NCBI RefSeq assembly: GCF_000585375.1
Contig: NZ_KK073874.1
Location: 6,850,894 to 6,914,893, forward strand
Reading direction: 5' to 3'
DNA length: 64,000 bases
From: Cryptosporangium arvum DSM 44712
Lineage (GTDB): Bacteria > Actinomycetota > Actinomycetes > Mycobacteriales > Cryptosporangiaceae
The notes beneath the pieces are model-generated. The model was given only the letters and a program-made list of their open reading frames with translations. It had not been told where the DNA came from and made no database searches. Of this stretch, positions 39,000 through 48,642 are shown one piece after another (position 1 is the first letter of the stretch; every line of letters starts with the position of its first letter). The translations under genes were made by a program, and so were the position numbers.

Positions 39000-39613
39000 C
39001 GCTCCCGTCCGGTGCGGCGCAGCGTCAGCGCGCGGACGACGTAATCCGCTCCGGTCACGACGGTCGCGAGCACCGCCGCTCCCATCACGACGGACCCGAC
39101 GTGGTCGATCGGATCCGGGATCGGGCAGAGGTACCAGATGATCGCGATGATCTGGAGCAGCGTCTTGAGCTTCCCGCCGCGGCTGGCCGCGATCACGCCG
39201 TGCCGCATGACCCAGAACCGCAGCGCGGTGACGCCGAGCTCGCGGACGATGATCACCACGGTGACCCACCACGGCAGCAGGTCGTAGGCCGAGAGCCCGA
39301 TCAGCGCCGCACCGGTGAGCGCCTTGTCGGCGATCGGGTCGGCGACCGCGCCGAACGGCGTCACCAGGTCGTGGGCGCGGGCGATCCGGCCGTCCCAGTA
39401 GTCGGTGATCGACGCGATCGCGAACAACGTCGCCGACGTCCACAGCCACCCGGTGTGCGTGCCGTCCGAGACGATCAGCGCGGCGACGAACACCGGCACG
39501 AGCACGATCCGCAGTGCGGTGAGCACGTTAGCCGCGTTCAGCAGGGGCGCCTGCTTCTTGGGGACGTCCTCGGAAGGCATTGGCGACTCAGCGCCGGCCG
39601 CCACGCCGCTCAT
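38996..39613 (-). CDS. pgsA: CDP-diacylglycerol-glycerol-3-phosphate 3-phosphatidyltransferase
   Basis: PgsA makes phosphatidylglycerophosphate for phosphatidylglycerol and cardiolipin. The CDP-alcohol phosphotransferase motif is complete: D-G-RIAR-x8-G-x3-D-x3-D in [20 protein letters not shown] and ADPIAD. About six membrane helices span 205 residues. ATG 39613 overlaps the rimO stop as ATGA; an internal ATG (MPSEDV) is possible. It is coupled to cinA downstream. Confidence 0.93.
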
Positions 39614-41106
39614 CCGCCAGAGCCGACGGGCGCGAGGGCCCGCGCGAGGAGCTCCGGCTCGACGCCGACCCGGTCGACGACGCCGAGCACCTCGGCCTCC
39701 AGATCGACCCCGAGGCTGCCGGTGACCCGCGCGCGCACCAGGTCGCCGACGGCGGGACGGCCGAGCACCGGACACTCGCCGTGCAGCGTCACCGACCCGT
39801 CGACCTCGGGCGCCTGGTGTTCCCCGCGCCCTTCCGCGACACCGTCGTCGCCCACCGATTCGACGAGCACCTCGACGATCGTGCCGTGCCGTTCCTCGGC
39901 GCGTTGCGCGGTGAGCTCCTCGGCGAGCCGCGAGATCCGGTCGAACCGGCGGTCGATCGTGTCGCGGCGCACCTTGCCGGTCAGCGTCGCGGCCTCGGTG
40001 CCGTCCTCGTCGGAGTAGCCGAACACGCCGATCGCGTCGAGCCGCGCCGCGGTCAGGAACCGGGCCAGCTCGGCGACGTCGGCCTTGGTCTCGCCGGGGA
40101 ACCCGACGATGAAGTTCGAGCGCACCCCGGCCTCGGGCGCCAGCCGGCGCGCGGTCGCCAGCAGCTCCAGGAAGCGCTCGGTGGAGCCGAAACGGCGCAT
40201 CCGGCGCAGCACCGGCTCGCTGGAGTGCTGGAACGACAGGTCGAAGTAGGGGACGACGCCGGGCGTGGTGGCGATGACCTCGATCAGCGACGGCCGGGTC
40301 TCGGCCGGCTGCAGGTAGGACACCCGGACGCGGACGATGCCGGGCACCGCCGCCAGCTCGGGGAGCAGGGCCTCCAGCAGCCGGGGGTCGCCGAGGTCCT
40401 TGCCGTAGGACGAGGAGTTCTCGCTGACCAGCACGAGCTCGCGGACGCCCTGCGAGGCCAGCCACCGGGCTTCCTCGACGATCTCGGTGGGGCGCCGGGA
40501 GACGAACGCGCCGCGGAAGGACGGGATCGCGCAGAACGCGCACCGCCGGTCGCACCCGCTGGCCAGCTTGAGCGGCGCCACCGGGCCACCCTCGAGCCGG
40601 CGACGCAGGACGCGCGGGCCGCTCGCCGGGGCCAGGCCGGCCGGGAGTTCGGCGTGCCCGGGGACGGCGACGTCGGCCGCCGAGCGCTCCACCGGGCTGA
40701 TCGGCAGCAGCGTGCGCCGGTCGCGCGGGGTGTGGGCGGTGAGTTCCTCGCCGGCCAGCACGCGGTCGAGCCGGTCGGAGATCGACGCGTAGTCGTCGAA
40801 GCCCAGCACGGCGTCGGCCTCCGGCAGCGCGGTGGCCAGCTCGTTGCCGTACCGCTCGGCCATGCACCCGGCCGCGACGACCTTGGCACCGCCGTCGGAC
40901 GCGGCGAGCAGCGTGTCGACCGAGTCCTTCTTGGCTTGCTCGACGAACCCGCAGGTGTTGACGAGGACGACGTCGGCATCCGAGGCGTCGACCAGTTCCC
41001 AGCCGTCACCGGCCAGGCGACCGGCGAGCTCTTCGGAGTCGACCTCGTTGCGCGCGCATCCCAGCGTGACGAGAGCGACCCGGCGGTCGCCGGCATTCCG
41101 AGGCAT
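39610..41106 (-). CDS. rimO: ribosomal protein S12 methylthiotransferase
   Basis: RimO is a radical SAM enzyme that methylthiolates the conserved Asp of ribosomal protein S12. It shows the N-terminal UPF0004 cysteines ([26 protein letters not shown]), the radical SAM motif CDRRCAFC, and a C-terminal TRAM domain. [10 protein letters not shown] and [17 protein letters not shown] distinguish it from MiaB. It is 498 residues and the first gene of the rimO-pgsA-cinA unit; the 196 bp upstream separate it from a divergent regulator gene. Confidence 0.95.
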
Positions 41107-41302: not shown

Positions 41303-42343
41303 ATGGACCATGACGTCACGACTACCCCGGTGACGCAGGTGACAGCGGCGATGGATGCGTTTCGCACGGAGCTGACGAGGCGTCGTGTCGATGCCGGTTT
41401 ATCGAAGAAGGCGCTCGCCCGACGGATGTCGTTCGATCCGTCGTACGTCAGCCACATCGAGAGCGGGCGGCACCGCCCCACCGAGGATTTCGCGCGCCGC
41501 GCGGACGACGTCCTCGGGCTCGGCGGGCGGCTGTTGGCGCTCTGGCGGGAGTACGACCGCACCCGGCAGAACGCGGCCGCCGGCGCGGCCGTGCCGGTGT
41601 CGGTCACCGCGGACCCGTCCTCCGATCTCGTGGTCGAGCGCGAAGAGGCCTCGCTGCGGTTCGACGGCCGGGACTACGTGATGACGATCCGTCGTCACCT
41701 GCACAACGTGGGCAGCAAGCCGGTGACGCTGTACTGGATCAAGATCAGCAGCGACGACCAGTCCGACGCGCCGCTCACCTGGGACACGATCGACCTGCGC
41801 GCGGTGTGCGAGGGCGAGCCGATGGACTGGCGGGTGACGAACGACCAGCCGTTCGCCAAGCAGGTCTGGCTCCAGTTCCGCAACGGCGACTACGAGTTCC
41901 CGCTCTACCCGGGCGCACGCACCTGGATCGAGTACTCGTACACGGTGCCGGAGAGCATCTGGGGCCGCTGGTTCCAGCGCGCGATCCGGCTGCCCACCCG
42001 GTACCTCTCGGTGCGGCTCACGTTCCCGGCCCACCTCGAGCCGCGGGTGTGGGGCACCGAGACCTCGATGACCGCCGACGGGTCGCCGCTGGGCGTCACG
42101 CCGCAGGTGACGCACACCACCGAGGGTGAAGTCGAGTGGTTCTGGGAGGTTCCGCAGCCCCAGCTGAACGCGCGGTACCGCCTGCTCTGGCAGTTCCAGA
42201 ACGGGCCGGGCGCCGGCCTGCGGTCGGGTCGCGCGACCGATCGGGCCGAGCGGTCGGAGCGCGGCGAGCGCCCCGACCACTCCGGAAGATCAGGCACCCG
42301 ACGCTCAACCCTGAACCGGCGACGGCCGGCCGTGCTGCAGTGA
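41303..42343 (+). CDS. XRE-family helix-turn-helix protein with C-terminal beta-rich domain
   Basis: Residues about 15-75 are an XRE DNA-binding domain (AGLSKKALARRMSFDPSYVSHIESGRHRP). Residues about 105-305 form a Trp/Tyr-rich beta domain (FDGRDYVMTIRRHLHNVGSKPVTLYWIKIS, PLYPGARTWIEYSYTVPESIWGRWFQ) found in uncharacterized actinobacterial regulators. The last 40 residues are Arg-rich and disordered. ATG 41303 has GAGG 7 nt upstream. Its 3' end overlaps the HAD gene by 39 bp, tail to tail. It is the likely regulator of the following cassette. Confidence 0.85.
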   Translation: MDHDVTTTPVTQVTAAMDAFRTELTRRRVDAGLSKKALARRMSFDPSYVSHIESGRHRPTEDFARRADDVLGLGGRLLALWREYDRTRQNAAAGAAVPVSVTADPSSDLVVEREEASLRFDGRDYVMTIRRHLHNVGSKPVTLYWIKISSDDQSDAPLTWDTIDLRAVCEGEPMDWRVTNDQPFAKQVWLQFRNGDYEFPLYPGARTWIEYSYTVPESIWGRWFQRAIRLPTRYLSVRLTFPAHLEPRVWGTETSMTADGSPLGVTPQVTHTTEGEVEWFWEVPQPQLNARYRLLWQFQNGPGAGLRSGRATDRAERSERGERPDHSGRSGTRRSTLNRRRPAVLQ

Positions 42344-43015
42344 TCGCAGGAGGTCGAGGTCGACCTCCGCGATCCCGCCCACGGTGAGGCACTCCCCCGT
42401 CACCGGTGTCACCACGACGACCCGGCAGCCGGCGGCCAGCGCGCTGGCCGCGCCGATCGCCGAGTCCTCCACGACCGCGCACTCGCCGGGCGCGACGCCC
42501 AGTGCGTCGGCCGCGCACAGATAGGGCTCCGCGCTGGGCTTGGGCGTCAGCACGTCGTCGCCGGAGACGATGACGTCGAACCGGCGCCGGTCGGCCTCGG
42601 CCAGCGCGGCGTCGACGTGGTCCCGGCTCGACGAGGTCACCAGACCGGTCCGCAGGCCGGAGCGCCGGACCGTGCGGACGAGCTCGCGCGCACCCTCGAA
42701 CCAGCGCGGTGGCGTCACGCTCAGGAGCGTCAGCACGCGGTTGTGCACCCAGCGCAGGTTGTCGGGAAGGTCGTCGTCGGGCAGGCCCAGCGCCTCGTGG
42801 GCGATCACCATCGCTTCGGCGGCGGCGAGCCCGATGCTGCGGACGAAGAACTCGGACGGCAGCCGGCCGCCGTAGGCGGTGGCTAACTCGATCATGGCCT
42901 GGTCCCAGACACCGTCACTCGCGACCAGCGTGCCGTCCATGTCGAACAGCACCGCCCGCAGGGGTAACGGGTTGTCTTCTTGTGGGCTCTCATCACTTCC
43001 CGGCAAGTGCGACAC
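42305..43015 (-). CDS. HAD-superfamily phosphatase (beta-phosphoglucomutase-like)
   Basis: This is a 236-residue HAD hydrolase of subfamily I. Motif I is FDMDGTLVAS with both Asp nucleophile and acid/base, motif II is VTSSS, motif III Lys is in LTPKPSAEPYL, and motif IV is VVEDSAIG. The cap domain lies between motifs I and II. Such enzymes dephosphorylate sugar phosphates or nucleotides; the substrate cannot be fixed. GTG at 43015. It is divergent from the peptide deformylase gene. Confidence 0.9.
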   Translation of the reverse strand: MSHLPGSDESPQEDNPLPLRAVLFDMDGTLVASDGVWDQAMIELATAYGGRLPSEFFVRSIGLAAAEAMVIAHEALGLPDDDLPDNLRWVHNRVLTLLSVTPPRWFEGARELVRTVRRSGLRTGLVTSSSRDHVDAALAEADRRRFDVIVSGDDVLTPKPSAEPYLCAADALGVAPGECAVVEDSAIGAASALAAGCRVVVVTPVTGECLTVGGIAEVDLDLLRSLQHGRPSPVQG

Positions 43016-43080
43016 ACCCCAGAGTGAGTTGACTCCGGGCGAGTCGCAATCGATCCGGCGTCCGCGACGGATGAGTGAGC

Positions 43081-43220
43081 ATGAGAATCACACCTCGCGA
43101 TCAGCGATTCAGCGGCGTTTTCCTCCCATGTGGACGCGACCGGCGGCGGGACGGCGCGCGCTGATCGCGCCCGCTAGTGTGTCGAAGTCTCATGAGCCTC
43201 TGCTGTCCCATGAGAATCAC
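43081..43220. repeat. direct repeat ATGAGAATCAC between HAD and deformylase genes
   Basis: The 11-mer ATGAGAATCAC occurs at 43081-43091 and 43210-43220, and CATGAG also at 43191-43196. All lie in the divergent intergenic region upstream of the deformylase gene and may be regulator sites. Confidence 0.4.
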
Positions 43221-43267
43221 TCTTCTCGGCGTTCCGGGCCGCCCGGGAGCCCTTACCGCCCCGCCTG

Positions 43268-43945
43268 ATGCCGTGGAGCCGTCCGGACATGTCGCTACCC
43301 CCTGCTGTTCCCGTCACCGACGCCCCCGGCGGCGGCTCCGGCTCGCCCGCCTCCCGTCCGGCGGCCGTGCCGGCCGGACCGTCGAGCACCCTCATGCGGC
43401 AGCTGGGGATCGCACAGCTGGGCGAGGAGCCGATGCTCCACACGATCGCGGCCCCGTTCGCGCTGCCGGCCGAGGCCGGAGCGGCCAGGACCGTCATCCG
43501 GGCGCTGCACGAGCACCTCGGCGCGATCCGGCAGGTGCACGCGTTCAGCAAGGGCACCGGGCTCGCCGCGCCGCAGATCCGGATCGACCGCAGGGCCACC
43601 GTGGTGATCGACCCGGACGGCAAGCGGATCGAGCTGATCAACCCGCGGCTGATCGGCGAGTCGGCGGAGGTCGACGAGCCGAAGTTCGAGGGGTGCCTGA
43701 GCTTCTTCGACGCCAGGGGCCGGCTGGCGCGGCCGCTGTCGATCACGGTGGAGCACCAGCGCTACGACGGTTTGTCGCTGGTCAGCGTCTTCACCGAGAG
43801 CGTCGCCCGGCTGGTGCTGCACGAGATCGATCACCTCGACGGCAAGCTCTACACCGACCGGATGGACGCCACCGAGCACCTGATCGCGGCCAGCGACTAC
43901 CGCGGCACCGGGCACCGCTGGGACTACGGCAACTCCGGCGGGTGA
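43268..43945 (+). CDS. def: peptide deformylase
   Basis: All three catalytic motifs are intact: GTGLAAPQ (96-103), EGCLS with metal ligand Cys143, and HEIDH with ligands His185 and His189 and catalytic Glu186. Deformylases remove the formyl group from nascent N-formylmethionine. At 225 residues it has about 45 extra N-terminal residues rich in Pro and Gly; ATG 43289 is an alternative start. It is not next to fmt, so it may be an accessory deformylase. The 3' end overlaps the NDK-like gene by 22 bp. Confidence 0.85.
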   Translation: MPWSRPDMSLPPAVPVTDAPGGGSGSPASRPAAVPAGPSSTLMRQLGIAQLGEEPMLHTIAAPFALPAEAGAARTVIRALHEHLGAIRQVHAFSKGTGLAAPQIRIDRRATVVIDPDGKRIELINPRLIGESAEVDEPKFEGCLSFFDARGRLARPLSITVEHQRYDGLSLVSVFTESVARLVLHEIDHLDGKLYTDRMDATEHLIAASDYRGTGHRWDYGNSGG

Positions 43946-44886
43946 GCGGACCCGTCCGGCAGGAGCGGGGCGACCCCGGCCAGTGTCGGCACCAGGAGAG
44001 AGGTGCCGAGCACGATCCGTTCCCAGTCCCCCAGGGTGACGCCCGACCGCTCGGCCGCGCGTGAGACCGCGGACCAGGACACGTCCTCACCCGCACCGAG
44101 CCGGGTGAGACAGGTGTGCAGCTCGCTCGCCCCGGCGGCCCGGGCGAGCACCTGCTCGACGGTGCCCGACAGCGTCAGGTCGAGCGGCTCCTGGGCCGCC
44201 TCGAGCGCGTGTGCCAACGCGAACGCCTCACGCCAGGCGTCCGCACCGTCGGCGAGCGCCGCGTAGAGCGCGCTCCGCTCCTCGGCCGGGAAGCAGATCC
44301 CGATCTCGCGGACCAGGTCCGCCGGTTCGTCCGCACTGTGGACCAGGTTCAGCTGCTGGTTCAGGGTGCCCAGCGCGTACCGCAGCTGACCGGGGCGGCA
44401 GCGCAGCGGGTCGGACCCACCTTTGGCGTGGGTGAGCTCCGTGCACGCCCATTCCGGGGATTCACCGGCGATACGGAGAATGAGTACGAGTGAATCCGTT
44501 GCCGTCATGTAGCAGTCGGCCATTTCCCGGCGATCGCGGGTCGCGGTGTTCCACTGATATTGCCACAGTGCGCGCACGGCCCACCGGTTCACCCGGAATC
44601 GGCGCGCGTGCACGACCTCCCACCCCTCCGCGGAGAGCCATTTGAGCGCCGCGCTCAATTGACGCCTGACCACCGCGTCCGGCTTGAGCAGGAGAAAAGC
44701 GTGACGCTCCGCAATTTCCTCGGCCCGGGAATTGCAGACCCCGACGAGGTCCTCCCAGGAATCCCGGAAATAGGTGTCGACGGAATAGAGTTGTTGCTTG
44801 GCGGCCGAACGGGTGAGGAGTGACGAAACGCGTTCAGGCGGAAAGACGTGCTCGGGGAGAAATACCGATGGGTGCGGAACGGCCAC
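43924..44886 (-). CDS. NDK-like protein with extra C-terminal domain
   Basis: Residues about 60-200 are related to nucleoside diphosphate kinase. The expected residues are present: Lys68 in LLLKPDA, Arg169 in RPGQLRYALG, Asn180 and the phospho-acceptor His183 in NLVHSADEP; the usual Thr of GPTxP is Ser (GGSDP). A leader of about 55 residues and a helical C-terminal domain of about 120 residues are additional, making 320 residues against about 140 for standard NDK. GTG 44886 has GGAGGAA 5 nt upstream. Composition is noticeably less GC-rich than the housekeeping genes. It is divergent from the eIF2B-like gene. Confidence 0.75.
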   Translation of the reverse strand: MAVPHPSVFLPEHVFPPERVSSLLTRSAAKQQLYSVDTYFRDSWEDLVGVCNSRAEEIAERHAFLLLKPDAVVRRQLSAALKWLSAEGWEVVHARRFRVNRWAVRALWQYQWNTATRDRREMADCYMTATDSLVLILRIAGESPEWACTELTHAKGGSDPLRCRPGQLRYALGTLNQQLNLVHSADEPADLVREIGICFPAEERSALYAALADGADAWREAFALAHALEAAQEPLDLTLSGTVEQVLARAAGASELHTCLTRLGAGEDVSWSAVSRAAERSGVTLGDWERIVLGTSLLVPTLAGVAPLLPDGSAHPPELP

Positions 44887-44990
44887 TAGATTCCTCCAGG
44901 CGGTAGGCGTGCCGATGCCGGCCGAACCTCGTCGCTCTGGCGCCGGGCGCCAGCCTCACACACCGGATCGGTCTCCGCGCTTTCCGTCAA

Positions 44991-45130
44991 TGTATCCGGT
45001 CAGCCAGGGCCGATCCCAGCGGTGGATACTCCCGTGACGAATAGTCACGACAGTTCCTGCCGTGGATTCGACACCGCTCCGATCCGTCGCAACCAGCGCT
45101 CGTATCATCGCGATACGTCGAGGTATCCGG
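44991..45130. promoter_or_regulatory. GTATCC motif cluster and palindrome between NDK-like and eIF2B-like genes
   Basis: TGTATCCGG (44991-44999), GGATAC (45024-45029), the palindrome CGTATC-atcgc-GATACG (45101-45117) and GTATCCGG (45123-45130) cluster here. The first is the inverse of the 9-mer upstream of the XRE gene. These are candidate operators for both divergent genes. Confidence 0.45.
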
Positions 45131-45159
45131 GCAGGGGTTCGTGCGTGCCCGAGAGGTCA

Positions 45160-45187
45160 TTGCGTAATTGTCGACGCCGGGTATTTT
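45160..45187 (+). promoter_or_regulatory. probable promoter of the eIF2B-like gene
   Basis: TTGCGT (45160-45165), a 16-bp spacer and TATTTT (45182-45187) form a plausible -35/-10 pair, 11 nt before the small leader frame. Confidence 0.4.
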
Positions 45188-45198
45188 GGTGGCGCACA

Positions 45199-45228
45199 AT
45201 GAACGATCAAGAAAGGCCCCTCGGGTGA
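45199..45228 (+). CDS. possible 9-residue leader peptide
   Basis: ATG at 45199 opens a short frame MNDQERPLG whose TGA overlaps the GTG start of the eIF2B-like gene as GTGA. GGTGG lies 6-7 nt upstream. Such an overlap would couple translation. It could also be chance. Confidence 0.3.
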   Translation: MNDQERPLG

Positions 45229-45932
45229 CCGACTCCAGAATTCCGCCGTCCCTCGTCGACCTGATATCCGTCCGGGGCGTCGGCTGTACCGGCGTTACCG
45301 GGATGGCCATCGAGGTGTTGAAGAAACTTACCGACGAGCCGGATCGCGTCACCGAATGCGTGCGTTTCCTACGTCGGGAATTGAGTGGATACGCCAGCCT
45401 TTGGCACCTGGAGCGGGCCCTCGCGTCCGGTGCTCCGGCGGCGACGCTGGAGGCCTTCGGCGACCGCCTGGAACTCGACGCCCGCACCGCGATCGAGACG
45501 GCCCACGCGCTCCTTCGTGACCGCGAGGGTGGCTTCGTGACGGCGCCGAGCAGCAGCCTGACCCGGCGGGTGCTCGCCGAACTCGGCGCCGACACCGCGA
45601 CCGGGGCCGGTGGTTCCGACTCCGGAGTCGGAACCACCGGAGTCGGGGCCACCGGAGTCGGGGCCACCGGCCTGTGCGGAGCCGACGCCGTGGGGCCCAC
45701 CGAGATCCTCAACATCGTCAGCACGCGTGAACTGGCCCAGCGGCTGCCCACGGTCGTCGTCACGACGCCGGACCGGCTGGTCCCCGGCGTCGTCTTCGAG
45801 ACGCTGGGGTCGCCCCTGTTCGAGCGCATCCCCCTGTCGATGTTCGAAGCCGTGGTCGTCGGTGGCCAGGTGCTCACCCCGGCCGAGGCCGGCGCCAGGG
45901 CGGCCGCGCTGGCGGCCGCGCACCCGGCGTGA
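45225..45932 (+). CDS. eIF2B-like protein (sugar-phosphate isomerase superfamily)
   Basis: The 235-residue product resembles the eIF2B alpha/beta/delta and MtnA family: FVTAPSSSLTRRVLAEL, GADAVGPTEILNIVSTRELAQ, VVVTTPDRLVPG and IPLSMFEAVVVGGQVLTPAE. The Asp of the GAD motif is kept, but the region where MtnA-type isomerases have a catalytic Cys reads TAPSSS, so isomerase activity is doubtful. It is shorter than usual (300 or more) and has a GVGATGVGATG repeat insertion at 45600-45680. GTG 45225 has AAAGG 8 nt upstream. Early codons are less GC-rich than average. Confidence 0.7.
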   Translation: MTDSRIPPSLVDLISVRGVGCTGVTGMAIEVLKKLTDEPDRVTECVRFLRRELSGYASLWHLERALASGAPAATLEAFGDRLELDARTAIETAHALLRDREGGFVTAPSSSLTRRVLAELGADTATGAGGSDSGVGTTGVGATGVGATGLCGADAVGPTEILNIVSTRELAQRLPTVVVTTPDRLVPGVVFETLGSPLFERIPLSMFEAVVVGGQVLTPAEAGARAAALAAAHPA

Positions 45933-45935
45933 CAC

Positions 45936-48497
45936 TCACTCCGCGGGGGTGCCCCCGCGGAGCACCACGAGCACCGAATCGAGCTCGTCCGGCTTCACCA
46001 GCACGTCCCGGGCCTTGGAGCCCTCGGACGGCCCGACGACGCCACGCGACTCCATCAGGTCCATCAGACGCCCGGCCTTCGCGAAGCCGACGCGCAGCTT
46101 GCGCTGGAGCATCGAGGTGGACCCGAACTGCGTCGTGACGACCAGCTCGACCGCCTGGACCAGCAGGTCGAGGTCGTCGCCGATGTCCTCGTCGATGTCC
46201 TTCTTGGCGACGGCCGGCGCGGTGACGTCCGCGCGGAACTCCGCCTCGCGCTGCTCCTTGCAGAACTTGACGATCGCCGCGGTCTCGTTCTCGGTGACCC
46301 ACGCGCCCTGGATGCGGATCGGCTTCGACGCACCCATCGGCAGGAACAGCCCGTCACCGCGGCCGACGAGCTTCTCCGCGCCCGGCTGGTCGATGATGAC
46401 CCGCGAGTCGGCCAGCGACGAGGTGGAGAACGCCAGCCGTGACGGCACGTTGGCCTTGATCAGACCGGTGACGACGTCCACCGACGGCCGCTGGGTGGCC
46501 AGCACCAGGTGGATGCCGGCCGCCCGCGCGAGCTGGGTGATCCGCACGATCGCGTCCTCGACGTCGCGGGGGGCCACCATCATCAGGTCGGCGAGCTCGT
46601 CGACGATCACCAGCAGGTACGGGTAGGGCTTGTAGACCCGCTCGCTGCCCGGAGGCGCGGTGATCTGGCCCGACTTCACCCGCTTGTTGAAGTCGTCGAT
46701 GTGACGCACGCCCGAGGCCGCCAGGTCCTCGTAGCGCATGTCCATCTCGCGCACGACCCACTGCAGGGCGTCCGCGGCCTTCTTGGCGTTCGTGATGATC
46801 GGCGTGACCAGGTGCGGGATGCCCTCGTAGAGCGTCAGCTCGACCCGCTTCGGGTCGATCAGGACCAGCCGCACCTCGTCCGGCGTCGACCGGGTCAGGA
46901 TCGACACCAGCAGCGTGTTGATGCAGCTGGACTTACCGGCGCCGGTCGCGCCGGCGACCAGGATGTGCGGCATCTTCGCGAGGTTCGCGACGACGTACCC
47001 GCCCTCGATGTCCTTGCCCAGGCCGACGAGCATCGGGTGCTCGTCGCTGGTGGCCGCGTGGCTGCGCAGGACGTCGCCGAGCGACACCGTCTCCCGGTCG
47101 GTGTTGGGGATCTCCACACCGACCGCGGACTTCCCCGGGATCGGGCTGATGATCCGCACGTCCGGCGACTTCACCGCGTACGCGATGTTGCGGGAGAGCT
47201 GCGTGATGCGCTCGACCTTCACCGCGGGGCCGAGCTCGATCTCGTACCGCGTCACCGTCGGGCCGCGGGTGAAGCCGGTGACGGCCGCGTCCACGTCGAA
47301 CTGTTCGAACACGCCGGTCAGCGCCGAGATCACGGTGTCGTTGGCGCGGCTGCGTGTCTTGGCCGGCGGGCCGGCCGCGAGCAGGTCGGGGGGTGGCAGC
47401 CGGTAGTCGCCCTCGGTCGCGGTCAGCGCGAGCTGCTCCGAGCGCGTCGGCGCCGGGGAGTGCTCGGGCGCGGCCTTGGGCGGCGTCGCGGGGATGTCCG
47501 ACGGCTTGGGACGCCGCTCGCCCGGGCGGGGGCCGGGCACACCGGAGGCGGGCACACTGTCCGGACCGGACCGCCGGATGGCGCCGGTCTCCTCCGGATC
47601 GCCAACCGGGCCGTTGTCCGGCGCGATCTCCTCGGCCACGCGGCGCCGACGCCGGGGCTTGGGCGGCGCGACCGCGTCCTCGACCACTTCCAGGCCGGCC
47701 TCGTCGTACTCGACGTCGGGCTGGATCGTCGGGACCCGGCCCTGGGTGAGGCCCCAGAGCTGGTCGAGACGAGCCGGGATGGCGGCGATCGGCGTCGCGG
47801 TGACGACGAGGACGCCGAAGATCACGACGAGGATCAGGATCGGGATCGCGACCCAGGCGGTGACCGCCGCGACGAGCGGACCGGCCGAGAACCGTCCGAT
47901 CACGCCACCGGCGTGCGTCCAGGTGTCGGGGTCCGCGGCGTCACCGGCTCCGAGGTGGAACAGGCCGAGTAAACCGATCGTCAGCGCCGACCATCCGACG
48001 AGCATCCGGCCCCGGTGCTCCGGGTCGGACGGCGTGCGCATCATGCGGACGGCCGCGGCTCCGAACAGGATCGGGAGCGCGACGGCGGCCGACCCGACGA
48101 GCCAGCGGACGCCGATGCGGATGCCCTCACCGGTGGGGCCACCGGCGTCGAACCAGAGCGCGGCGGCCGCCACGATCGCCAACGCGAGAACGGCCAGCCC
48201 CGCGCCGTCGCGCCGGTGCTCCGGAGGGAGCTCACGGGCCGACGACGCCTGCCGCCCTGCCGCACGCACTCCCCCGCCGACGCCCCGCGCGACCAGCAGC
48301 CACGCGTTGACGAGGACCTGGCCGGGACCGGGTACGCGGGAAGGAGCGGCCTTCGCCCGCGCGGCGGGGCGCTTCCCGGTCGTCGCCTTCCGGGGCGCCG
48401 CCTTGGCCGCGGTGGCCTTGCGGGCGGCCGTCTTGCGCGGGGCAGCCTTTTTCGCGGGTCCCCTCGATCCGGACACACGTGAACCACCACCAGCCAT
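45936..48497 (-). CDS. ftsK: DNA translocase FtsK
   Basis: FtsK pumps DNA at the division septum. An Ala/Lys-rich basic N-terminus of about 50 residues is followed by about four transmembrane helices, a Pro-rich linker, the motor with Walker A GATGAGKSS near residue 515 and Walker B LLVIVDELADLM, and a C-terminal gamma winged helix (TTQFGSTSMLQRKLRVGFAKAGRLMDLME) that reads KOPS sites. At 853 residues it is normal for actinobacteria. ATG 48497 is chosen; an internal GTG (VSGSRGP) is possible. Confidence 0.94.
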   Translation of the reverse strand: MAGGGSRVSGSRGPAKKAAPRKTAARKATAAKAAPRKATTGKRPAARAKAAPSRVPGPGQVLVNAWLLVARGVGGGVRAAGRQASSARELPPEHRRDGAGLAVLALAIVAAAALWFDAGGPTGEGIRIGVRWLVGSAAVALPILFGAAAVRMMRTPSDPEHRGRMLVGWSALTIGLLGLFHLGAGDAADPDTWTHAGGVIGRFSAGPLVAAVTAWVAIPILILVVIFGVLVVTATPIAAIPARLDQLWGLTQGRVPTIQPDVEYDEAGLEVVEDAVAPPKPRRRRRVAEEIAPDNGPVGDPEETGAIRRSGPDSVPASGVPGPRPGERRPKPSDIPATPPKAAPEHSPAPTRSEQLALTATEGDYRLPPPDLLAAGPPAKTRSRANDTVISALTGVFEQFDVDAAVTGFTRGPTVTRYEIELGPAVKVERITQLSRNIAYAVKSPDVRIISPIPGKSAVGVEIPNTDRETVSLGDVLRSHAATSDEHPMLVGLGKDIEGGYVVANLAKMPHILVAGATGAGKSSCINTLLVSILTRSTPDEVRLVLIDPKRVELTLYEGIPHLVTPIITNAKKAADALQWVVREMDMRYEDLAASGVRHIDDFNKRVKSGQITAPPGSERVYKPYPYLLVIVDELADLMMVAPRDVEDAIVRITQLARAAGIHLVLATQRPSVDVVTGLIKANVPSRLAFSTSSLADSRVIIDQPGAEKLVGRGDGLFLPMGASKPIRIQGAWVTENETAAIVKFCKEQREAEFRADVTAPAVAKKDIDEDIGDDLDLLVQAVELVVTTQFGSTSMLQRKLRVGFAKAGRLMDLMESRGVVGPSEGSKARDVLVKPDELDSVLVVLRGGTPAE

Positions 48498-48642
48498 GGT
48501 GATGACCGTATCGTGCCGACACTCGTCTCTCACGCAAGCGCGCCGGGGAGCGACACGCCGCGACGACGGGTGTCGGAACGATTACAGGTTGCTCGGACGT
48601 TGTTCCCTGGGAGAGGCATATTCGCCACCAGGGAGGCAACCG

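Follow-up and report, generated by a model that had tools for sequence, protein, structure and literature searches.

Two candidate gene modules, a regulator with a peptide deformylase and an NDK-like protein with a trimmed eIF2B-fold protein, between rimO and ftsK of Cryptosporangium arvum

Results

Five genes lie between rimO and ftsK

The window analyzed here is a 64,000-nucleotide stretch of the genome of Cryptosporangium arvum DSM 44712 (contig NZ_KK073874.1, positions 6,850,894 to 6,914,893). Between the core genes rimO and ftsK it carries a block of five genes that encode an XRE regulator, a HAD phosphatase-like protein, a peptide deformylase (PDF), an NDK-like protein and a short eIF2B-like protein (Table 1). 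An earlier note on this DNA, made from the letters alone, had described the block as one accessory cassette, and the list of open reading frames (ORFs) together with the window sequence confirmed all five genes at the place and in the orientation that it gave. Neighboring genes of the block are divergent and convergent in alternation, with tail-to-tail overlaps of 39 bp (XRE/HAD) and 22 bp (PDF/NDK), as had been pointed out, and a gap of 3 bp separates the ends of the eIF2B-like gene and ftsK. We placed the start of the PDF gene at the ATG at 43394 because the PDF part of fused homologues, described below, begins there.

A Pfam search of the block returned HTH_31, HAD_2, Pep_deformylase and NDK, and the fifth protein had no match. 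Elsewhere in the genome we found one canonical NDK, four other PDFs (the window PDF being one of five) and two full-length IF-2B family proteins. The copies in the block are therefore accessory paralogues, which agrees with their earlier description as paralogue-like variants.

Table 1. Features of the rimO-ftsK interval in window coordinates
Feature	Position	Strand	Remarks
rimO	39610..41106	-	Flanking core gene; 89-91% identity in 3 congeners
XRE regulator	41303..42343	+	HTH_31 plus ~200-residue conserved domain without Pfam family; fused to PDF elsewhere
HAD_2 phosphatase-like protein	42305..43015	-	Pfam HAD_2; block link only within genus
Accessory PDF	43394..43945	+	ORF open from 43268; ATG 43394 is the homologous start
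NDK-like protein	43924..44886	-	GTG start after GGAGGA; N-terminal helices, NDK core ~62-203, helical C-terminal domain ~201-297
Divergent intergenic region, NDK-like/eIF2B-like	44887..45221	.	335 bp, 62% GC
Trimmed eIF2B-fold protein (predicted)	45222..45932	+	GTG start after AGAAAGG; listed ORF opens at TTG 45168; no Pfam family
ftsK	45936..48533	-	Flanking core gene; 84-90% identity in 3 congeners

The XRE regulator and the PDF are fused in other genomes

The window PDF scored 95.4 bits against PF01327 (cut-off, 22.8), and its translation contains GTGLAAPQ, EGCLS and HEIDH, matching the family motifs GxGxAAxQ, EGCLS and HExxH. Judged by these residues, its catalytic motifs are intact, as the earlier note had stated. 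It thus resembles known Def proteins in having the domain above the gathering cut-off and all three motifs, whereas its score of 86.8 bits misses the 103.95 bits required by the curated equivalog TIGR00079, and it shares 42-51% identity with the deformylase part of the fused proteins. The XRE protein shares its N-terminal helix-turn-helix (HTH) with the XRE/HTH_31 one-component regulators. Unlike these, its family adds the domain of ~200 residues listed in Table 1 and, elsewhere, also a C-terminal deformylase. A sequence-based fold search with this middle domain gave weak matches only, to designed Ig-like proteins (E 0.003), and tblastn against phage records (E 1e-5) gave no match.

Homologues were sought in separate searches of 101 genomes of relatives, 396 of the phylum, 150 of relatives and 296 of the class. 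The XRE protein had homologues in 25 of the 150 relatives, own genus included (E 1e-20), and the middle domain occurred in 18 of the 296 class genomes, C. arvum among them (E 1e-15), as well as in 18 plasmid records. The 52 stretches used for a fusion test came down to 41 distinct loci after repeats and the four of the genus itself were set aside. At 35 of these 41 loci outside the genus, the middle domain and a PDF lay in one stop-free frame; at two (L034 and L165) XRE and PDF genes were adjacent, and at four no PDF was seen within ~1.5 kb. Three loci (L034, L035 and L139) favor the link because they were found via PDF or HTH-PDF matches; counting the two XRE-led searches only, 33 were fused, 1 was adjacent and 4 were without PDF, of 38. 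Fused forms occurred in at least nine genera, two of which supply most of them. On plasmids, the match to the XRE domain lay inside a gene annotated as peptide deformylase in 12 of the 18 records, and a DNA search found HTH and PDF together on Streptomyces and Nonomuraea plasmids.

This arrangement could also be read as a pure sensor, whose deformylase fold would bind formyl peptides or inhibitors with no enzyme action. The fusion to an HTH-bearing protein at 35 of the 41 distinct loci would suit such a role. Against it, each of the 35 distinct fused proteins has motif I and HExDH, and 34 have EGCLS, the exception being G018 (L140), so that catalysis has probably been maintained. We thus consider the pure-sensor reading unlikely.

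A single polypeptide of HTH, middle domain and PDF was found neither in C. arvum nor in the three congeners examined, which have two genes instead. The window XRE protein can be aligned with the fused proteins up to the end of the middle domain, after which a short low-complexity tail completes it, and the window PDF resembles their PDF part from 43394 on; the unit thus appears to be split in this genus, with the HAD gene in between. That the two halves would work together is a strong inference from the fusions.

Several observations weigh against a tight coupling of the two. A PDF-led search found an XRE gene within ~1.5 kb only at L139 and L140, so that 17 of the 19 PDF loci other than our own (L139 to L157) were without one. 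Most of these 17 loci are distant PDFs, but at L141 and L142 the identity to the window PDF is 44-46% over 120-134 residues. The coupling is one-sided. Moreover, within the genus the PDF diverges faster (46-54% identity) than the XRE protein (79-82%), so the coupling may be relaxing.

In the sister genus (G004), XRE and PDF genes are adjacent at a different site, which by eye lies close to uppS and a metal transporter. Directly downstream of them lies a gene for a HIT-like protein, also recognized by eye (L165:248-847). A third, HIT-like partner of XRE-PDF was not found at the other loci tested, ~0.9-1.5 kb downstream and 12 kb in a few. We recognized no description of an HTH-deformylase unit in the open literature searched, with several multi-term queries and limited coverage. 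A study of EfgA, a formaldehyde sensor, reports that Methylorubrum extorquens could grow on formaldehyde when it carried mutations in a peptide deformylase gene (PMC8153426), which is a lead and not evidence for the window protein.

The NDK-like protein keeps the phospho-histidine machinery

The NDK-like protein scored 47.5 bits against PF00334 (cut-off, 27). Its structure model (pLDDT 92) shows an NDK core, and the 50 PDB matches listed by Foldseek were all NDK entries, with target TM values of 0.74-0.88 over ~140 residues. The helical C-terminal domain of the model, which corresponds to the extra domain seen earlier, was unmatched by these 50. Compared with seven canonical NDKs of related genomes, K68, R169, N180, H183 and E194 are kept, four of which are the catalytic Lys, Arg, Asn and His reported in the earlier note. 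The full canonical active site of nine residues is not present: S158 replaces Thr, and Tyr, the second Arg and Ser are replaced by W108, T152 and A185, respectively. R105, W108 and K155 are invariant in 45 family members, and K68 is nearly so. Thus, the protein has the core fold and the active-site Lys, Arg, Asn, His and Glu of canonical Ndk, from which it differs in the substituted residues, in a new invariant Lys155 and in extra N- and C-terminal helices. As modeled, it is a divergent NDK with a helical C-terminal domain, and we consider phospho-histidine chemistry with a changed acceptor most likely.

Three loci (L050, L052 and L056) carry a second NDK-like protein, without the active-site Lys, beside an eIF2B-NDK pair. 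The same kind of literature search, again with several multi-term queries and limited coverage, recognized no description of the NDK-like family or of the eIF2B-NDK pair. One source treats phospho-histidine and arginine kinase in general, and its accessible part holds nothing on the NDK-like family (PMC6429109).

The short eIF2B-like protein is a predicted trimmed member of the eIF2B fold

The eIF2B-like protein of 236 residues is invisible to sequence searches: none of eight members of its family matched PF01008 (IF-2B), a PDB sequence search detected no relation, and an IF-2B family search of the genome found the two other proteins and missed this one. The AlphaFold model (pLDDT 86, pTM 0.82) nevertheless bore out the name. 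A fold search gave 360 PDB matches, and the 50 listed were all eIF2B or ribose-1,5-bisphosphate isomerase, with E values from 9e-8 and query TM values of 0.49-0.68. Two results count against this assignment, namely that these 50 matches had only 9-15% identity with a root-mean-square deviation of 4-11 Å, and that hhalign of the family against a profile of 16 IF-2B rows gave the expected register without significance (E 0.43).

The protein shares with the eIF2B alpha/beta/delta and R15P/MTR-1-P isomerase family (PF01008) the predicted fold and, in the expected register, the signature GAD...LN..GT. It differs from that family in having no Pfam match, no invariant Cys and no ETRPxxQGxRxT segment, both of which are present in the IF-2B rows, and in a replaced NGD. 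The Asp of GAD is kept in seven of the eight members; the Cys and the Asp have catalytic roles in the isomerases. We infer that the protein is a trimmed form of the eIF2B/sugar-phosphate isomerase fold without catalytic function. The link with translation initiation that had been read into the eIF2B name does not hold.

eIF2B-like and NDK-like genes are paired in four other families

Of 177 NDK-like relatives in genome contigs, the best 80 were kept, and these are the basis of all 80-locus counts; they span up to 10 kb per side, less at several contig ends. At seven loci from four families (three in Plantactinospora, two in Sphaerisporangium and one each in Actinomadura and Nocardia), the NDK-like gene was immediately preceded on its own strand by an eIF2B-like gene. 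The two genes are separated by 6 bp in L046, L048 and L052 and overlap in L056; in L050 the distance, measured to the start as called, is ~135 bp. A tree was built from 48 rows, namely 36 of the 80 loci, the window and 11 further members, after removal of L005, L006 and L008. In it the 11 NDKs with an eIF2B neighbor, four of them from the genus, formed one group with an SH-aLRT value of 91, and none of 500 shuffles came out as low. An alignment search for the eIF2B-like protein in the 396 genomes of the phylum had matches in 12, comprising the own genome, two strong ones (G113 and G128, E ~1e-40) and nine at E 2e-10 or weaker. No match to the eIF2B-like gene was found on plasmids (tblastn, E 1e-5).

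Some of the evidence speaks against a functional pair. The SH-aLRT value is below the tool's mark of 95, in a quick tree with long branches, and the Plantactinospora pairs sit, by eye, among housekeeping-looking genes. The two strong eIF2B-like relatives were without an NDK on the stretches examined (L246, 13.6 kb; L247, 3.7 kb), and the eIF2B-like gene of the window is divergent from the NDK-like gene; the pair is therefore not obligatory.

In one of these relatives the trimmed eIF2B-like gene (L246:10294-10956) overlaps the end of what is, by eye, a MeaB-like GTPase gene. On a Streptomyces virginiae plasmid (L033:12124-15036), an NDK-like gene is convergent and overlapping with a gene annotated mtnA, a member of the eIF2B fold family. 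This overlap is a second link between the NDK and eIF2B folds, and a second NDK-like gene (E 4e-12) follows the mtnA pair.

Most NDK-like loci are biosynthesis-like clusters

Unlike canonical Ndk, the NDK-like family lies in biosynthesis-like clusters at most of the 80 loci. Naming the neighboring gene groups by Pfam on one representative each, we counted an AMP-ligase group at 69 loci, a UbiA-like group at 68, an SDR/reductase at 67, a PPDK/phosphoenolpyruvate (PEP)-utilizer at 66, a nitroreductase at 47 and a separate acyl carrier protein (ACP) at 41. AfsA was seen at 34 loci by a simple pattern and is probably undercounted. The commonest order (17 of 80) was PEP-type, AMP ligase, ACP, SDR, NDK, AfsA, nitroreductase, UbiA.

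By comparison, none of the six gene-called loci among the seven with an eIF2B neighbor had a PEP-type, SDR or UbiA gene of these groups; L071 is hardly gene-called. L050 has one gene of the AMP-ligase group. L052 and L056 have AsnB-like genes (by eye) and nucleotidyltransferase-like genes (by eye in L056, just over the Pfam cut-off in L052), and L056 has an AurF-like gene as well. The eIF2B-NDK pair might thus be a remnant of a biosynthetic gene cluster that now has an unrelated regulatory or nucleotide-balancing job. The stand-alone pair of Plantactinospora and the window, next to the cluster-like contexts in Actinomadura (L052) and Sphaerisporangium (L056), is in line with this idea. Since the stand-alone form could equally be the original one and the tree gives no order, we regard a remnant as rather doubtful.

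A cluster of ~10 kb around the NDK-like gene is conserved in Nocardia, Streptomyces and others (L046 to L125, e.g., L055 and L089). One representative of its AMP-ligase group has a weak nucleotidyltransferase match, and its AfsA is a hotdog protein. No paper on the AfsA-containing cluster was recognized in the open literature searched, with limited coverage. On a plasmid of Streptomyces anulatus, in the vicinity of YcaO and TOMM genes, an NDK-like domain is fused to an amidohydrolase (L036:9887-12373). Outside the actinobacteria, an NDK-like gene lies inside a biosynthesis-like operon on an Enterobacter chuandaensis plasmid (L032:11932-12996), and another was found in Aquabacterium (L084).

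The two pairs occur apart from each other outside the genus

The earlier note had proposed one pathway, related to nucleotides or formyl peptides, for the five genes and had suggested looking for their families together within 10 kb in other genomes, a lack of such co-occurrence being named as grounds for refutation. By this test all five occurred together only within the genus, namely in C. arvum and three congeners. The genes are tightly packed, with two overlaps, and keep their order in these four genomes, which would fit one pathway. On the other hand, XRE or PDF homologues were found by tblastn (E 1e-3) at none of the 80 NDK-like loci outside the genus, and NDK or eIF2B homologues were found on none of nine XRE-PDF stretches of 5.8-12 kb; the strands also alternate, so that there is no simple transcript common to the five genes. 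One loose exception is the Streptomyces plasmid pFRL3 (L188:9010-17920), in which a PDF 47% identical to that of the window lies ~8 kb from a distant NDK-like gene, a point in favor of a single pathway. In view of these counts, we hold a five-gene pathway to be very improbable. What stands of the functional links proposed within the block are two pairs, XRE-PDF and eIF2B-NDK. In the same tblastn search a HAD homologue appeared at one of the 80 loci and is distant (L085, 33%); the HAD gene was rejected as part of either module, having no link outside the genus.

In all three congeners examined (G001 to G003), the order rimO-XRE-HAD-PDF-NDK-eIF2B-ftsK and the orientations are the same as in the window. 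Identity to the window is 79-82% for XRE, 72-76% for HAD, 62-64% for NDK, 64-66% for eIF2B-like and 50-54% for PDF; over longer matches it is 61-63% for NDK, 61-62.5% for eIF2B-like and 46-54% for PDF. The block is therefore probably no recent arrival, and this synteny speaks against a recent transfer of the whole block, one form of the transfer suggested earlier. The lower GC content also noted there proved to be a weak deviation overall (NDK, 68.6%; eIF2B-like, 71.4%; mean, 72.4%). At third codon positions (GC3) the two are lowest (NDK, 0.829, z -3.4) and second lowest (eIF2B-like, 0.852, z -2.6) around a mean of 0.930, ranked against 49 gene calls of the window that include shortened calls of block genes. 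They are the only block genes with deviant GC3. A transfer of the NDK/eIF2B pair, albeit no recent one, is thus possible from its low GC3.

In congener G001 (L252, contig C7), the sole NDK-family match was the NDK-like gene of the block, and no canonical NDK was found; this may be because the assembly consists of ~90 contigs and the gene is simply absent from it.

The rimO gene was found in six of eight genomes queried. In five other genera both ends of the rimO-ftsK interval were seen, and it ranged from one gene (L222, ~1.1 kb) to ~10 kb (L221), with no match to XRE, HAD, PDF, NDK or eIF2B. In the sister genus (G004), ABC-transporter-like genes lie upstream of rimO, and the contig stops before any ftsK. 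The interval is variable, and its content is genus-specific. Such variability, like the low GC3 of NDK and eIF2B, would be expected of unrelated passengers without functional link that the genus has kept by chance. Yet chance does not easily account for XRE-PDF fusions or for an eIF2B-NDK pair that recurs in four other families and groups in the tree, which contradicts the passenger reading for the two pairs. The HAD gene may be such a passenger, and the pairs may have no link to each other. As an account of the whole block we find it quite improbable.

Other searches of the window found no tRNA genes, and a search for an operator in the NDK/eIF2B intergenic region found short imperfect repeats only. 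A defense role was rejected, since PADLOC gave weak HTH matches only and PHROGs gave regulator, HAD and PDF families only.

Discussion

The explanation that we consider probable is that the block consists of two independent uncharacterized modules and a HAD phosphatase gene, which had come together in the variable rimO-ftsK interval by the time the four species of the genus diverged and have since been retained.

In the first module, the HTH regulator and a deformylase with apparently intact catalytic motifs would act as one unit, as the gene fusions elsewhere suggest, and the genus would have the split version. Natural inhibitors of peptide deformylase, such as actinonin, exist. Tentatively, the module could be an accessory deformylase, autoregulated, which would step in upon inhibition of the housekeeping enzymes or when formylated peptides accumulate, with the middle domain or the deformylase as the sensor.

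In the second module, the NDK-like protein, with its phospho-histidine machinery kept, would cooperate with an eIF2B-fold protein in which the Cys of the isomerases has been lost; conserved adjacency and the grouping in the tree point to this link. It is conceivable, with somewhat less than even confidence, that the NDK-like protein moves phosphate via His183 to or from a specialized metabolite or an unusual nucleotide, while the eIF2B-fold protein would serve either to bind the substrate, a sugar phosphate or nucleotide, or to dock the enzyme.

Peptide deformylase, a target of antibiotics, is generally regarded as a housekeeping enzyme. With fusions of an HTH protein to a deformylase of intact motifs recurring on chromosomes and plasmids of actinobacteria, it becomes possible to test directly whether deformylation is regulated. 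The eIF2B-NDK pair offers a concrete partner for a minimal eIF2B-fold protein, and the place of the NDK family in biosynthesis-like clusters is a lead to an unusual phosphotransfer step. In the boldest and, to us, unlikely form of this proposal, the HTH-deformylase would be a one-component regulator that reads the state of translation initiation from formyl peptides, from formylation or from inhibitors of the deformylase, with the deformylase as both sensor and enzyme in a unit separable into two neighboring genes, and the eIF2B-fold/NDK pair would be a new two-part phosphate-transfer system.

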